This document shows, piece by piece, positions 1,540-28,031 of a stretch of 35,294 nucleotides of DNA. Source of the stretch: Syntrophales bacterium. GTDB lineage: Bacteria > Desulfobacterota > Syntrophia > Syntrophales > CG2-30-49-12. The notes under the pieces were generated by a model. It made no database searches. It saw only the letters and a program-made list of their open reading frames with translations, and was not told the origin of the DNA. The position numbers were made by a program, and so were the translations under genes. Location: the NCBI GenBank assembly GCA_030018935.1, contig JASEGZ010000019.1, forward strand, positions 1-35,294, written 5' to 3'. Within the stretch, counting starts at the first letter, position 1. The number at the start of each line of letters is the position of its first letter.

Positions 1540-2913
1540 ATGAAACCAAAAAGGATATTAACCATTGCCGGTTCAGATTCCGGTGGCGGAGCAGGGATTC
1601 AGGCAGATTTGAAGACGATTGCCTCCCTTGGGGGGTTCGGGATGAGTGTCATCACCGCCTTGACAGCCCAGAATACTCTCGGTATCCAGGACATCCATGA
1701 GGTCTCCCCGGAATTTGTCAAGAGGCAATTTGATTCTGTGGCGTCGGACATAGGCATAGATGCAGCCAAGACCGGTATGCTTGTCAACTCCGGGATAATA
1801 GAGGTAGTGGCAGACGGCATTAGGGAATACAGCGTTGAAAAGCTTGTTGTTGATCCGGCAATGGCAGCCAAAGGGGGAACGCCGCTGATCAAGGGTGAGG
1901 TCAGGGATGACCTGATCAGGGAACTGATCCCTCTGGCCCTTGTGGTGACACCGAATATTTCCGAAGCCGAGGTCCTCTCCGGGATAAAGATTGCCTCCCT
2001 CGACGGGATGAGAGAAGCGGCGCGGGTCATTTATGATCTGGGGGCAGAGAATGTACTGGTCAAAGGGGGGCATCTGATGGATGCCGATGTCACGCACGCC
2101 AGGGACATCCTCTATGACGGGAAGAATTTTTACGAGTTTTCCTCTGAGAGGATTGATACTAAAGACACGCATGGTACCGGGTGCACCTATTCCGCCGCTA
2201 TTGCCACCGGTCTTGCCATGGGGAAGAGTGTTTTTGAGGCCGTGGAAGAGGCAAAAAAGTATATCACAGAGACCATCAGGTTTTCCTATCGTATCGGTGG
2301 GGGGCAGGGACCAACGAACCATCTCGCCCCTCTTTTACGGGAGGTGGAACGTTATCGCTGTCTTGATGAGCTGAAGGCCGCCCTGCAAAGATTGAAGGGG
2401 GAAAAATGCGGTCATGTCATCCCGGAGGTACAGTCAAACCTCGGCTATGCCCTTCCCGGCGCCAGGGGGATCGAGGAAGTGGCGGCTGTTCCGGGCAGGA
2501 TTATCCGGATCGGAGATGAGGTGGCAACCCTCTGTGAGCCGGCTTTCGGCGCCTCTTCACATATCGCAAAGATCATCCTCACCGTTTTGAGGTACAACAG
2601 TGAATATCGTGCGGCGATGAATATCCGGTTTTCGGAAGATATTGTAAAGATATGCCAGGCCTTGGGGTATGACATCGCCCATTTCAGTCGGGCAGGCGAA
2701 CCGCCTGAGATGAAAGAGAGAGATGGTTCCTCCCTCGAATGGGGAACGGAGACTGTCCTGGCAAAGAGGGAAAAGGTTCCCGATATCATCTTTGACAGGG
2801 GCGATGTGGGGAAAGAGCCGATGATCCGGGTCCTCGGGAAGGACCCTCATGATGTTGTGGATAAGGTTTTAAATCTGGTAAGGAAATTGAAAGTCGTAAG
2901 TCATAGGTCGTAA
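1540..2913 (+). CDS. thiDN: Fused HMP/HMP-phosphate kinase and thiamine-phosphate synthase (ThiD-ThiN)
   Basis: A two-domain enzyme of 457 residues. Residues about 1-265 are ThiD: N-terminal IAGSDSGGGAGIQADLKT, then TALTAQNT, and the anion-hole motif DTHGTGCTYSAAIA. ThiD phosphorylates hydroxymethylpyrimidine twice. Residues about 280-450 are the archaeal-type ThiN domain (QSNLGYALPGA, VAAVPGRIIRIGDEV, FGASSHIAKIIL, MNIRFSEDIV, DIIFDRGDVGKEPMIRVLG). ThiN joins HMP-PP and thiazole phosphate to give thiamine phosphate in place of ThiE. Such fusions are known in archaea and some anaerobic bacteria. The gene follows thiN after 9 nt and precedes the thiazole synthase, so both thiamine halves and their coupling are encoded together. 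The last six codons (VVSHRS) and the stop come from a heptamer repeat array, so the C terminus has probably been altered by the repeat. Confidence 0.93.
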   Translation: MKPKRILTIAGSDSGGGAGIQADLKTIASLGGFGMSVITALTAQNTLGIQDIHEVSPEFVKRQFDSVASDIGIDAAKTGMLVNSGIIEVVADGIREYSVEKLVVDPAMAAKGGTPLIKGEVRDDLIRELIPLALVVTPNISEAEVLSGIKIASLDGMREAARVIYDLGAENVLVKGGHLMDADVTHARDILYDGKNFYEFSSERIDTKDTHGTGCTYSAAIATGLAMGKSVFEAVEEAKKYITETIRFSYRIGGGQGPTNHLAPLLREVERYRCLDELKAALQRLKGEKCGHVIPEVQSNLGYALPGARGIEEVAAVPGRIIRIGDEVATLCEPAFGASSHIAKIILTVLRYNSEYRAAMNIRFSEDIVKICQALGYDIAHFSRAGEPPEMKERDGSSLEWGTETVLAKREKVPDIIFDRGDVGKEPMIRVLGKDPHDVVDKVLNLVRKLKVVSHRS

Positions 2914-2942
2914 GTCGTATGACTGACGACTGACGACTGATG
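2893..2942 (+). repeat. Heptamer GTCGTAA array at the thiDN stop codon
   Basis: Seven 7-bp units in a row: GTCGTAA, GTCATAG, GTCGTAA, GTCGTAT, then GACTGAC, GACTGAC, GACTGAT. The second half is roughly the reverse complement of the first, so the array can fold. It starts inside the last codons of thiDN and supplies its TAA. Similar arrays occur at 11110, 19541 and 25321. Confidence 0.85.
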
Positions 2943-2962
2943 TTTTAGGAGGAAAGGATAAT

Positions 2963-3746: not shown

Positions 3747-3957
3747 TTCAGCGGGACCTTTGAAAATTGACTTCACAAGGGCTCAAAATCTTTTTTCGAC
3801 CATTCTAACGCTCGCTCCACTGCAAAGGCAACAACTCGCGCTGCGCGCTCAAACATTTGCCTTTGCGGCCGTTTCGCTTCGCGAAGAATAGTTGCGAAAA
3901 AAATCTTGCATTTGCCCTTTCGAAGCCAATTTTCAGTCTCGCAAAGTTCTCTTCAGC
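3747..3957. mobile_element. MITE-like element, copy A, with TTCAGC target duplications
   Basis: The element spans about 3753-3951 and is bounded by the direct repeat TTCAGC at 3747-3752 and 3952-3957. Its left arm starts GGGACCTTTGAAAATTGACT. The reverse complement of the right arm starts GAGAACTTTG and then shares TGAAAATTGGCTTC and a run of T followed by CG. It has the same nested layout as copies B (10846) and C (25103), but the core sequence differs while the stem GCAAAGGCAA/TTGCCTTTGC keeps its pairing. It carries no transposase, so it would need one supplied in trans. It occupies nearly all of the 317-bp gap between thi4 and cca. Confidence 0.75.
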
Positions 3958-5550: not shown

Positions 5551-5623
5551 AAATCGGGGCGGGCAAAATCGGGGGCGCAAAATCGCAAAATCCAAAATCG
5601 GCAAAATCGGGGTCAGGTCTTTT
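5551..5623 (+). repeat. Degenerate AAAATCGG repeats ending in GGGGTCAGGTCTTTT
   Basis: AAATCGGGGC, CAAAATCGGG, GCAAAATCG, CAAAATCC and CAAAATCGG follow one another, ending with GGGGTCAGGTCTTTT at 5609-5623. The last motif is an inverted match to AAAAGACCTGACCC at 6533-6546 and 6572-6585, on the other side of the transposase gene. These are probably the recognised ends of that element. Confidence 0.7.
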
Positions 5624-5626
5624 ATC

Positions 5627-5655
5627 TTGACATTTCCGACGGGTTATGATAAAGT
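5627..5655 (+). promoter_or_regulatory. Strong sigma70-like promoter of the transposase gene
   Basis: TTGACA at 5627-5632 and TAAAGT at 5650-5655 are 17 bp apart. The predicted start point (about 5662) is almost at the ATG (5665), and no Shine-Dalgarno is visible, so the mRNA may be leaderless or nearly so. Confidence 0.55.
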
Positions 5656-5664
5656 ACCGCCATC

Positions 5665-6543
5665 ATGGCACGCCCACTTCGCATAGAATACCCTGGCGCT
5701 GTCTATCATATCACAAGCCGGGGAAACGAAAGAAAGGCCATTTACAAAGACGATCATGATCGTGAGGGTTTTCTCTCCACCCTACAGCGTGCCAATAATC
5801 GATATAACTGGATCTGTCACTCCTACTGCCTTATGGACAACCACTACCACCTTCTCATCGAGACCCCGGATGGCAACCTCTCCATCGGTATGCGGCAGCT
5901 AAACGGTGTCTACACCCAGTTTTTTAATAATCGGCACAGGAGAACCGGTCACCTCTTCCAGGGGAGATACAAGGCTATCCTCATCCAGAAAGACAGTCAC
6001 CTCCTCGAAGCCTGCCGATATATCGTCTTAAACCCCGTCCGTGCCAGGACGGTTGGACAACCGGAGGACTGGAAGTGGTCCAGTTACCGCGCCACGGTCG
6101 GCAAGGAACAGCCACATCCCTACCTTACCACAGACTGGATACTCGGGCAATTCAGCGGAAAAAGAGGAGAGGCAGAGAAGGAATACCGGCAGTTTGTCCA
6201 AGAGGGTATCGGAAAAGAATCGATCTGGTCAGGTGTTAAGGGGCAGGCCATACTCGGTGAAGATGAATTTATTGGCAGCCTCATTGATCATTTCAAAAAA
6301 CATAAAGACGTGATCGAGATACCAAAAGGCCAGCGATATGTGAACAGACCGGCACTTGAAAAAATATTCCCAGAGATTATAATAAAAGACAAAGAGAATC
6401 GTGACAGGAAGATACTGGAAGCTGTTGAGAGATACGGTTATCGGCAGAGTGAAATTGCCCGGTACCTGGTTATGCATTATTCGACGATAAGCAATTTGCT
6501 ACGGGGAGCGGGGAAAAGCCTAATACCAAAAGAAAAGACCTGA
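5665..6543 (+). CDS. REP-associated tyrosine transposase (RAYT, IS200-like Y1 domain)
   Basis: A single-strand DNA nuclease of the HUH Y1 family related to IS200/IS605 TnpA. Residues about 1-150 form the Y1_Tnp domain: GAVYHITSRGNERK, the metal-binding HYH at 60-62 in LMDNHYHLLIE, and the catalytic tyrosine in CRYIVLNPVRA (Y119). The tail at about 255-285 (YRQSEIARYLVMHYSTISNL) looks like a DnaA-type helix-turn-helix. RAYTs cut and paste short palindromes rather than themselves. The 292-residue length is normal for the C-terminally extended type. The gene lies between inverted copies of GGTCAGGTCTTTT, and its TGA stop lies inside one of them. It is intact, with a good promoter but no ribosome-binding site. 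It may or may not serve the palindromic elements elsewhere in the window; nothing in the sequence links them directly. Confidence 0.88.
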   Translation: MARPLRIEYPGAVYHITSRGNERKAIYKDDHDREGFLSTLQRANNRYNWICHSYCLMDNHYHLLIETPDGNLSIGMRQLNGVYTQFFNNRHRRTGHLFQGRYKAILIQKDSHLLEACRYIVLNPVRARTVGQPEDWKWSSYRATVGKEQPHPYLTTDWILGQFSGKRGEAEKEYRQFVQEGIGKESIWSGVKGQAILGEDEFIGSLIDHFKKHKDVIEIPKGQRYVNRPALEKIFPEIIIKDKENRDRKILEAVERYGYRQSEIARYLVMHYSTISNLLRGAGKSLIPKEKT

Positions 6544-6631
6544 CCCTAATTCCTAATTCCTACTTCCAAAGAAAAGACCTGACCCTAATTTCCCTCTAAT
6601 TTCCCTAATTTTCCTAATTCTCTAATTCCCA
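6533..6631. repeat. Duplicated AAAAGACCTGACCC motif followed by CTAATTTCC repeats
   Basis: AAAAGACCTGACCC occurs at 6533-6546 and again at 6572-6585, inverted with respect to 5609-5623. It is followed by degenerate CCTAATTTCC units to about 6631. The layout mirrors the left flank (repeat array outside, motif inside), so the transposase gene is bracketed by a large inverted arrangement. Confidence 0.7.
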
Positions 6632-10840: not shown

Positions 10841-11055
10841 ATCTTGAGAGCTTTGAAAATTGCCTTCATCAGGGCTTCAAAATCTTTTTTCGACCATGGA
10901 TCATTTAGTTTTGCTGCCAGGGCAAAACTCAGGCTTCGCCTTCAAACAGTTGCCCTGGCGGGCGCTTCGCTGCGATGGCAGAGCCCCCCTCCCCGAAAAA
11001 ATCTTTGATCCGCCCTTTCTGAAGCCAATTTTCAATTTTGCAAAGCTCTCATCTT
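10841..11055. mobile_element. MITE-like element, copy B, with ATCTT target duplications
   Basis: The element at 10846-11050 begins GAGAGCTTTG and ends CAAAGCTCTC, a perfect 10-bp terminal inverted repeat extended imperfectly to about 45 bp. The 5-bp sequence ATCTT flanks it on both sides (10841-10845, 11051-11055). Inside, CCAGGGCAA pairs with TTGCCCTGG, AGGC-TTC-GCCT forms the tip, and CTGCCA pairs with TGGCAG. The 97 bases at 10913-11009 are identical to 25169-25265 in copy C. It fills most of the thpR-recA gap. It contains no protein-coding gene that I would defend. Confidence 0.85.
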
Positions 11056-11109: not shown

Positions 11110-11123
11110 GACTTACGACTTAT
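11110..11123 (-). repeat. Short heptamer GTCGTAA array at the thpR stop codon
   Basis: On the minus strand the sequence reads ATAAGTCGTAAGTC. The TAA stop of thpR is the first triplet of the repeat, as in thiDN and the mutase small-subunit gene. It is only two units long. Confidence 0.6.
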
Positions 11124-11704
11124 ATCCCCCGAAAGGGAAACCAGGCCAGTTTTGTATAAATGGCCCCCCCCGGTGTCAGTTCACTCTTGAGAAGGGTGAG
11201 TCCATCGGCCTGAAACTGTCCTGCAACGTAATTCCCTCCCCCTTCCACAACCGCGGCCAGGCCAATCACCCCTTTCGGCGACTTAATCCTTCCCAGCGTT
11301 AGATGCGGCCGGAAGGGCCTTTCCTCCCTTTTAAAACCATAATCCTGAAAACCGCGATCCATGACCTTCTGGAGATTGCTCAACGGCACCACATCGCCAT
11401 TTATCCCAAGCCAGATGACACGAGGCCGCATTACATCCGGAAATACCCCGACGGCTTTGACACTCAGGGAAAGTGGCTTGACATCGGCCACAGTCTTCTC
11501 CACTACCCGGCTGATATTTACCACGTCATCCCCGGAAATATTGCCAAAAAATTTCAGTGTCAGATGCATCCCTTCCAGTCTCGCCCAGCGGATAACCCCA
11601 TGGATTGTTTTCTTCAGACGGTTCTGAATACCTACAATCTCGTTTCTGATCTCCCCGGGCAGCTCAATGGCCACAAATGCCCTTATCGTCTTTTCTTCGG
11701 TCAT
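11120..11704 (-). CDS. thpR: RNA 2',3'-cyclic phosphodiesterase (2'-5' RNA ligase family)
   Basis: A 194-residue member of the 2H phosphoesterase superfamily. Both catalytic H-x-T-x motifs are present (HLTLKF near residue 47 and HLTLGR near 134), with the typical start RAFVAIELP. It opens 2',3'-cyclic phosphates to 2'-phosphates; the physiological substrate is uncertain across the family. The start has a GGGGAG site 7 nt upstream and lies within the end of cinA (41-nt overlap), so the two are translationally coupled. This pairing with cinA upstream of recA is common in Desulfobacterota. Confidence 0.9.
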   Translation of the reverse strand: MTEEKTIRAFVAIELPGEIRNEIVGIQNRLKKTIHGVIRWARLEGMHLTLKFFGNISGDDVVNISRVVEKTVADVKPLSLSVKAVGVFPDVMRPRVIWLGINGDVVPLSNLQKVMDRGFQDYGFKREERPFRPHLTLGRIKSPKGVIGLAAVVEGGGNYVAGQFQADGLTLLKSELTPGGAIYTKLAWFPFRGI

Positions 11705-18139: not shown

Positions 18140-18171
18140 CTAAAGTTAGGGTAAAGTTTCTCTAACTTTAG
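18140..18171 (+). terminator. Hairpin after htpX, possible weak terminator
   Basis: CTAAAGTTAG at 18140-18149 pairs perfectly with CTAACTTTAG at 18162-18171. No T tract follows, so termination would have to be Rho-assisted, or it acts as an mRNA 3' end barrier. It lies 15 nt after the htpX stop. Confidence 0.4.
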
Positions 18172-18698: not shown

Positions 18699-19534
18699 TC
18701 AGAAAACTATCACCGGCAAAGGTGAACCTGTACCTTTGCGTATTTCGCAAGCGGAAAGACGGCTATCATGACATCGCAACCCTGATGCAAAGGATAAGTC
18801 TCTATGATGAAATGACGTTTTCACCTATCGAGAGGGGCATTGTGGTAAAATGTCCGGACTCCCTGCCGGAAAATGAGGATAACATTGTTTACAGGGCAGC
18901 AATGGCCCTTTTTTCTTATGCTTCCTGTGCGTCCGGTATTGAAATTACCATCAAAAAAAGAATCCCCATCGCGGCAGGCTTAGGTGGGGGAAGTTCCAAT
19001 GCGGCCACGACACTGATGACCATGAACGAGATATTCGGGTTCCACTACAGCAGAGATGACTTGATGAAGATAGGGGCAAAATTGGGGGCAGATGTCCCCT
19101 TTTTTATTTTTGGCAAGACGGCATGGGCTTTCGGCATTGGCGATCGCCTTCAGGCGGCGGACAACATCCCTCCCCTGTGGTTTGTCCTGATAAATCCCCG
19201 CTTCGCCATCTCCACAGAGATGGTTTATGAAAATCTAAATTTAAGATTGACAAAAGGATCAATAAATTATACCATCCCGCAACTTCAGACAGTAAACGAT
19301 TTAGTGAAAGGACTACGTAATGATCTGGAGGATGTGACGCTGAACATATATCCCCTCTTACGGCACTTAAAGGATATTTTACTGACACATGGAGCTTTGG
19401 GTACCCTAATGTCGGGCAGTGGGCCGACCGTTTTTGGCATATTTTTAGAGGCAGAGGCAGCGCTAAAGGCAAAAAAGGCCTTGGAAGAAGTGGGAAGGGG
19501 GACGTGGTCTGTATTGATGGCACATTCTATCTAA
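18695..19534 (+). CDS. ispE: 4-diphosphocytidyl-2-C-methyl-D-erythritol kinase
   Basis: Fourth step of the MEP pathway to isoprenoids: ATP-dependent phosphorylation of CDP-methylerythritol. A GHMP kinase of 279 residues with SPAKVNLYLCVFRKRKDGYHD at the N terminus, the ATP loop PIAAGLGGGSSNAATTL, and the C-terminal glycine motif GTLMSGSGPTVFGIF. Start and stop are clear; it overlaps the DUF1844 gene by 4 nt. A heptamer repeat array begins a few bases after its stop. Confidence 0.95.
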   Translation: MIRKLSPAKVNLYLCVFRKRKDGYHDIATLMQRISLYDEMTFSPIERGIVVKCPDSLPENEDNIVYRAAMALFSYASCASGIEITIKKRIPIAAGLGGGSSNAATTLMTMNEIFGFHYSRDDLMKIGAKLGADVPFFIFGKTAWAFGIGDRLQAADNIPPLWFVLINPRFAISTEMVYENLNLRLTKGSINYTIPQLQTVNDLVKGLRNDLEDVTLNIYPLLRHLKDILLTHGALGTLMSGSGPTVFGIFLEAEAALKAKKALEEVGRGTWSVLMAHSI

Positions 19535-19540
19535 ATAAAA

Positions 19541-19680
19541 GTCGTAAGTCGTACGTCGTAAGTCATACGTCATAAAAGGAGGGCCACGCTCCGTCGTGGT
19601 CTAAGTCGTAGGTCATAAGTCCTCGATATAAGATGTACGACATACGACTTATGACTGACGACTTATGACTGATGACTTAA
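19541..19680 (+). repeat. Heptamer GTCGTAA / GACTTAY inverted array between ispE and tRNA-Gln
   Basis: GTCGTAA, GTCGTAC, GTCGTAA, GTCATAC, GTCATAA are followed by a spacer with a small CCACG/CGTGG hairpin. Then come GTCGTAG, GTCATAA, and the complementary set GACATAC, GACTTAT, GACTGAC, GACTTAT, GACTGAT. The two halves can fold into one long imperfect stem. This is the largest of the four heptamer arrays. Confidence 0.85.
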
Positions 19681-25097: not shown

Positions 25098-25311
25098 TAT
25101 TTGAGACCTTTGAAAATTGACTTCACAAGGGCTCAAAATCTTTTGACGATTATGCATCATTTAGTTTCGCTGCCAGGGCAAAACTCAGGCTTCGCCTTCA
25201 AACAGTTGCCCTGGCGGGCGCTTCGCTGCGATGGCAGAGCCCCCCTCCCCGAAAAAATCTTTGATTCGCCCTTCACGAAGCCAATTTTCAGTTTTTCAAA
25301 GGTCTCTATTT
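25098..25311. mobile_element. MITE-like element, copy C, with TATTT target duplications
   Basis: The element at 25103-25306 starts GAGACCTTTGAAAA and ends with the exact reverse complement, a 14-bp perfect terminal repeat. TATTT flanks it at 25098-25102 and 25307-25311. Its core (25169-25265) is identical to copy B. In copy B the fifth terminal base is G with a matching C at the other end; here it is C with a matching G, a compensatory change. It separates meaB from the mutase small-subunit gene and may break or weaken their co-transcription. Confidence 0.87.
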
Positions 25312-25320
25312 TCCTTTTCC

Positions 25321-25364
25321 TATGACCTATGACTTACGACTTACGACTTGTTTCCTACGACCTC
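25321..25364 (-). repeat. Heptamer GTCGTAA array at the stop of the mutase small-subunit gene
   Basis: On the minus strand: GGTCGTAG, GAAACAA, GTCGTAA, GTCGTAA, GTCATAG, GTCATAG. The gene's TAG stop (25355-25357) lies in the first unit, giving a C terminus PRS like the HRS end of ThiDN. It lies next to MITE copy C. Confidence 0.8.
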
Positions 25365-25780: not shown

Positions 25781-25947
25781 TCAGGCACAAAGAGGCAAAG
25801 GCACATAGGCACAAAGTTGCAGGAATACGATCGGAATGTAGGACACAACCAGATACCGCTTTGTAAACATCTTATAGGAACTTAAGCAACTCATTCTCTT
25901 CAGATCTCTCGACTTTGTGCCTTTGGTGCTTTGTGCCTTTGTGCCTG
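25781..25947. repeat. GGCACAAAG arrays in inverted orientation between the mutase subunit genes
   Basis: The left side has AGGCACAAAG, AGGCAAAGGCACAT, AGGCACAAAG. The right side has CTTTGTGCCTTTGGTGCTTT, GTGCCTTTGTGCCT. The halves are complementary over about 35 bp and enclose about 95 bp without obvious structure. The right arm ends just before the large-subunit stop codon. It could fold in the mRNA and set the ratio of the two subunits. Confidence 0.7.
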
Positions 25948-27631: not shown

Positions 27632-27698
27632 GTTATTCACCTCTATTCCTGAAAATATTCAACCCGTGCGGTTAGATTTGATCTTGTAATTTCAGTTA

Positions 27699-27947
27699 CT
27701 TTTTCACCGCCGCGCTCAAGACACAGAGGTCGCAGAGGAAAAATATTATTTCTTTTCTGCTGAGAGGGCAGAAAAGAAATAATCTCAATCGCGATTTCAT
27801 CGGAATGGTTAAAGATAGGGGGAGATCGAATATACTTTAGCATTCCTTTATATGCCGTGAGGCTTGAGTTTGTTGTTTTCCGTCCCTCTCAACGGAAAAC
27901 AACAAAGAAGTAATCCCTGCGTACTCTGCGCCTTTGCGGTGAAAAAG
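27699..27947. repeat. Inverted element with two hairpins and complementary loops
   Basis: CTTTTTCACCGC at 27699-27710 and its reverse complement at 27936-27947 bound the element. Inside are two perfect 15-bp hairpins. The first is 27745-27759 with 27769-27783, loop CTGAGAGGG. The second is 27869-27883 with 27892-27906, loop CCCTCTCA. The loops are exact complements over 8 nt. In opposite orientation the halves read alike (CTCAA and GGAATG follow each hairpin), with stem bases changed on both sides. It lies between the divergent mutase and carboxyltransferase genes; the rest of that 474-bp gap holds only the promoter at 28032. Confidence 0.85.
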
Positions 27948-28031
27948 CCTAAACGCACAGCTCAAAAATATCGCAATTAGTATCTCAAAACTGTTACCTT
28001 GTCAAGTCATATGACTGCTTGTTTTTTTGTC

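Follow-up and report, generated by a model that had tools for sequence, protein, structure and literature searches.

A 249-bp twin-hairpin feature from a Syntrophales bacterium is best read as a gene-less member of a mobile repeat family linked to GxxExxY genes

MITEs are short, gene-less, multicopy elements with inverted ends that lie in intergenic DNA, and known MITE parents carry recognised transposases. REP, BIME and REPIN sequences, which go with RAYT (TnpA-REP) proteins, consist of two hairpin units in inverted orientation and are scattered through intergenic DNA; the stem of REP hairpins is conserved. IS200/IS605 elements carry subterminal hairpins that are recognised by structure, and their ends are not inverted repeats. 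The feature described here has the appearance of a MITE, including gene-bearing relatives with internal deletions (L103, L194), but the only gene seen in its family is GxxExxY (TIGR04256 / PF13366), a gene that throughout the phylum is bracketed by unit-built inverted repeats of this type. In its workings the feature resembles a MITE or a REPIN, yet it is not a REP, since it lacks a GTAG/CGTC tag and a RAYT gene inside, combines a free, variable stem with a fixed loop, carries terminal inverted repeats (TIRs) of tandem units outside the hairpins and is linked to another gene. Nor is it an IS200/IS605 element, because its ends are inverted repeats and no Y1 gene lies inside.

The feature occupies positions 27699-27947 of the stretch analysed (hereafter the window), which comprises 35,294 nucleotides and is contig C19 of a 2.07-Mb, 90-contig genome (G000). 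As the earlier note had claimed, two perfect hairpins with mutually complementary loops are present (Table 1), far above the roughly 0.0003 perfect stems of at least 15 bp (loops 3-12) expected by chance per 35 kb; the only other perfect hairpin of at least 10 bp in the window is found at 18140-18171. The loop originally assigned to hairpin A, TGAGAGGG, takes in one closing base, and once the closing C-G is opened this hairpin can alternatively be drawn with 15 bp and a 9-nt loop. The sequence also agrees with the proposal that the hairpins are one motif in opposite orientation with different stems. The element is delimited by a perfect 12-bp TIR (27699-27710 / 27936-27947; 249 bp end to end), and no ORF of at least 100 aa overlaps it. 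Both ends follow one plan: about three units of 8-9 bp (CACCGCAGAG-NCGCAGAG-NNCGCAGAG) make up an inverted repeat, and a hairpin comes after it at a near-constant distance, its fixed loop reading TGAGAGG from either end inwards. The full length of the window element probably exceeds 249 bp, because CCTAAACGCACAGCTC, just outside the right TIR, is shared in inverted orientation with other copies (GAGCTGTGCGGTTAGGC); a weaker copy of this outer-end sequence is found on the left.

Table 1. Parts of the twin-hairpin element and its probable outer ends in the window
Feature	Position	Strand	Description
Possible left outer end	27659..27675	+	CAACCCGTGCGGTTAGA, weaker match
Left terminal inverted repeat	27699..27735	+	CTTTTTCACCGC core and degenerate 8-9-bp units (..GACACAGAG-GTCGCAGAGG); the units also end copies in G000, G001 and Desulfobacterales
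Hairpin A	27745..27783	+	Perfect 16-bp stem (arms 27745-27760 and 27768-27783), 7-nt loop TGAGAGG; loop conserved and stem covarying in 30 distinct relatives
Linker without ORF	27784..27868	+	Shortened to CTCAGCCGTGAGGCTTGAG in G000:C2; position of the GxxExxY gene in intact relatives
Hairpin B	27869..27906	+	Perfect 15-bp stem (arms 27869-27883 and 27892-27906), loop CCCTCTCA, which is loop A in reverse complement; stems covary in 46 distinct relatives
Right terminal inverted repeat	27915..27947	-	CTTTTTCACCGCAAAG-GCGCAGAG-TACGCAGGG on the - strand, three tandem units
Probable outer end	27949..27964	-	GAGCTGTGCGTTTAGG on the - strand; also in copies at C60, C39, C32 and G001 C100

The genome-wide search for fixed-loop hairpins with varied stems that the earlier note had suggested does return further copies. 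Four hairpin-bearing copies occur in G000, including that of the window: one has two hairpins joined by a short linker (C2:73520-73691), another has two hairpins with different stems and the loops TTGAGAGG/CCTCTCAA (C32:18461-18626) and the third has one hairpin (C10:20417-20533). Several solo ends are found as well, at C60, C39 and C34. The genes beside the G000 copies are unrelated to one another (response regulator, short-chain dehydrogenase, hisA-like, lemA-like and others, with names read from the protein starts). Repeat ends are present in only 4 of 155 genomes from the order, and within the phylum the hairpin pattern occurs in 21 of 345 genomes, some of which are probably chance matches; a reversed control pattern gave four or five single matches in all in the same 345 genomes. 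The genomes richest in matches are G200 (58), G224 (32), G235 (17) and G163 (10), and some G235 matches are letter-for-letter identical to those of 'Deltaproteobacteria bacterium NC_groundwater_1539' (L105, L165), which suggests that the phylum of the window is delta-proteobacterial. Searching a public genome collection and viral contigs with a pattern composed of the loop and two TIR units yielded, among the matches listed, at least 62 further ends with a stem of at least 11 bp, hosted mainly by Desulfobacterales and other delta-proteobacterial assemblies.

Stem sequences vary at nearly all positions, with pairing kept, among 46 distinct B hairpins and 30 distinct A hairpins. A non-redundant set of 27 B hairpins has 96.3% of its cells paired, compared with 73% after shuffling and 47-58% in slid controls, and double changes number 86 compared with 23.5 in shuffled stems (0 of 500 shuffles); 13 of the 14 stem pairs show double changes in this set, with a covariation of 0.635 against 0.177. 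The constancy of loop B among the 62 ends is by construction, as the search pattern contained CCTCTCAA. Nevertheless, loop conservation is independently supported by the partner hairpins, which were sought in the sequence without a loop pattern: 39 were found in 59 ends, 30 of them with a GAGAGG-like loop, while the remaining nine include three with a small extra palindrome in the loop and two single-base loop variants. Thus, the predicted recognised hairpin with a fixed loop (TGAGAGG / CCTCTCA) and varied stems is well founded, and the outcome that would have spoken against it, namely a lack of other copies and freely diverging arms, is not what is seen, as copies are many and stem pairing is maintained. 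The suggestion that the complementary loops kiss fares less well. The complementarity arises because one fixed-loop end sits in inverted orientation at both sides, and a requirement for kissing is unsupported because the loop A variants TGAGCGG (L125) and TGATAGG (L180) are not accompanied by a matching change in loop B. As a separate observation, hairpin A of L097, L121 and L197 holds a small GC-rich palindrome (CCCCG..CGGG) inside the TGAGAGG loop, as if another repeat had used this loop as its insertion target.

The repeat family is apparently mobile, since near-identical copies stand in unrelated flanks. Two 198-bp elements from different genomes (L136 and L138) are 99% identical, but their flanks are 24% identical, and other element pairs show 75-95% identity inside and 8-39% outside. 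Moreover, the site that holds the C10 copy is cleanly empty in the sister species G001 (C129). At the window locus G001 lacks the hairpin element and has a different left neighbour; upstream of its carboxylase gene lies an internally deleted GxxExxY element with another end type, bearing AAAAGTTT(GT) on both sides. Over 29 elements, no excess of target-site duplication above mismatched flanks was found.

The gene associated with this family, GxxExxY, sits precisely between hairpins A and B. It is intact there, as an ORF of about 127 aa, in at least five genomes (L124, L168, L186, L278 [G224:C13] and L288 [G474:C172]); each of these five copies has its loop 51-58 bp from the start of the element (starts set by eye at the TIR). 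Three of the five ORFs were scanned and all match NCBIfam TIGR04256 GxxExxY (E ~1e-45); two match Pfam PDDEXK_3 (PF13366), and there is weak similarity to Cas4. GxxExxY is therefore predicted to be a PD-(D/E)XK nuclease, an assignment of fold that comes from the Pfam family: no sequence match to GxxExxY exists in the PDB, and an AlphaFold2 model built with three close sequences reached a pLDDT of 35 and was discarded. No relatives of GxxExxY were confirmed in viral contigs. Gene-less copies can arise from gene-bearing ones, because broken (L134), degraded (L103, L155) and deleted (L194) forms are all found. With its 12-bp perfect TIR and tandem units, its lack of coding capacity, the presence of conserved-end copies in unrelated flanks and of gene-bearing parents with the same type of ends in other genomes, the window copy fits best as a MITE-like, gene-less member of the mobile family.

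The linkage of GxxExxY to repeat ends extends beyond the elements with hairpins. Most GxxExxY genes across the phylum sit between unit-built inverted repeats: the best inverted 16-mer between the flanks reaches at least 15 matches at 15 of 28 GxxExxY loci but in none of 110 shifted controls; with a threshold of 14 matches the counts are 22 of 28 and 5 of 110. The repeats bracket the gene in the family at large, while the window copy itself is gene-less. Their units (CGCAGAG, CACAGAG, CACGAAG, CGCAGATT and the like) recur with 8-9-bp spacing. The hairpin is not required for this linkage, because many GxxExxY elements lack hairpins (G034, G055); among those examined, fixed-loop hairpins are confined to a delta-proteobacterial subfamily. 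G000 has no detectable GxxExxY gene, so that mobilisation there would be a past event or occur in trans, whereas G001 holds about ten GxxExxY fragments, mostly at contig ends, several of them identical with unrelated flanks.

How might such an element move? We consider it probable that GxxExxY acts on the paired hairpin ends of a small mobile element, of which the 249-bp feature is one gene-less, non-autonomous copy. The GxxExxY nuclease, or a complex containing it, would recognise the tandem-unit ends together with the extruded hairpin, either as a cruciform or as single-stranded DNA. The tandem units might provide sequence-specific binding, and the fixed loop could mark the place of binding or cutting, such that the hairpin is read by its loop and shape. 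Gene-less copies would be carried along in trans, with the protein being supplied by a full copy or having once been present in G000. What the sequences show is the layout of the element, the covarying stems, the scattering of copies and the place of the gene; that GxxExxY mobilises the element, by which chemistry and on which form of the DNA, is our inference.

It is possible, instead, that GxxExxY is no more than a passenger. If the hairpin pair were REP-, BIME- or REPIN-like and mobilised in trans by a Y1 protein (RAYT or IS200-type), its plan of two short, inverted, intergenic and dispersed hairpin units would be accounted for, and Y1 genes are indeed at hand: G000 has three, one of them in the window. 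Yet Y1 genes are common anyway (249 of 345 genomes); their presence in 20 of 21 hairpin-pattern genomes and 229 of 324 others (p=0.012) compares with 18 of 21 and 104 of 324 for GxxExxY (p=1.4e-6), and both statistics ignore genome kinship. Furthermore, the ends were never seen to enclose a Y1 gene, and the intact elements examined hold only GxxExxY; the REP tags GTAG/CGTC occur at 0 of 60 hairpin bases; constancy lies in the loop and variation in the stem, whereas in REPs the stem is conserved; and the window Y1 gene, one of the three in G000, is bracketed by different repeats of its own, not by the hairpin repeat. A Y1-driven scenario therefore strikes us as unlikely, and the earlier idea of a target for a single-strand transposase finds no support. 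Similarly, GxxExxY could be cargo, or an accessory factor in repair or resolution, and the tandem-unit inverted repeats the substrate of some other transposase. That GxxExxY is found with several unit sequences, with or without hairpins, and that G000 has no helper gene, would fit such an arrangement, as would the occurrence of S23 four-helix-bundle genes within a comparable layout of 7-bp units, which indicates that more than one protein goes with unit-built ends. However, gene family and unit period are matched (7 bp in 16 of 18 S23 loci, mostly 8-9 bp for GxxExxY), suggesting that each protein goes with its own ends, and no gene other than GxxExxY was found inside the intact elements examined. 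On balance we are doubtful of a separate transposase.

A function as RNA was also considered, with the TIR helix closing two hairpins that possibly kiss, and the transcript regulating, or being processed near, the divergent metabolic genes. The predicted RNA fold does close the TIRs and form both hairpins (-99.4 kcal/mol), and the loops are complementary. Against this, the copies adjoin unrelated genes, the orthologous site in the sister species holds another element, Rfam returned no family above its gathering score (sub-threshold chance matches only), the changes in loop A are unmatched in loop B, and no U-run follows either hairpin. A structured RNA is thus very improbable; a regulatory RNA for the neighbouring operons, which the earlier note had offered as an option, is unlikely, the upstream region of the sister carboxylase gene being without the element. 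An intrinsic terminator was rejected for want of a T-run after either hairpin.

There is a real chance that the family represents a new transposon class. Tentatively, and with less confidence than we place in the mechanism proposed above, this class would have a single-domain PD-(D/E)XK nuclease, GxxExxY, as its sole protein and tandem 8-9-bp units as its ends, with hairpins read by loop and shape, not by the sequence of the stem, in the present subfamily, the window element as a gene-less satellite and the S23 genes as a parallel system. A literature search, outside which most subscription journals lay, found neither GxxExxY, TIGR04256 nor the repeat family described as a mobile element, and nothing relevant on four-helix-bundle mobile elements. 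GxxExxY is widespread in the phylum, often multicopy and of unknown function, and its physical tie to mobile repeat ends now gives it a testable role. The hairpins are also a natural example of a DNA structure, with a fixed loop and a free stem, that is kept through strong compensatory change, and they could help in studying the reading of hairpins or cruciforms by nucleases.

The S23 genes (four-helix bundle, PF05635, 23S-rRNA-IVP) have a layout similar to that of GxxExxY, suggesting that those with 7-bp-unit ends form a parallel family of mobile elements. Their units include AAGTCAT, GGTTCAA, TAGGCTA and others at loci L305-L324 (8 genomes) and G000:C35:14662-14976. Dispersed AAGTCGT/AAGTCATA tracts in the window (2883-2947, 11110-11132, 19533-19679 and 25307-25361) match the S23-type 7-bp repeat of the G000 S23 gene. 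Other repeats are present in the window as well. The RAYT-like Y1 ORF (5665-6543) lies between GGGGTCAGGTCTTTT / AAAAGACCTGACCC repeats within 5605-6591. An inverted pair of CACAAAG-type units (25782-25817 / 25912-25947; 36 nt, 81%), 94 bp apart and situated between two cluster genes, looks like a gene-less GxxExxY-type element. Finally, the two copies of a 181-bp direct repeat (10870-11050 / 25126-25306) are 91% identical and lie 14 kb from each other. Related pieces occur near 3755 and 3895, and this further dispersed repeat family is also found in L319 (G000:C43) beside an S23 fragment.
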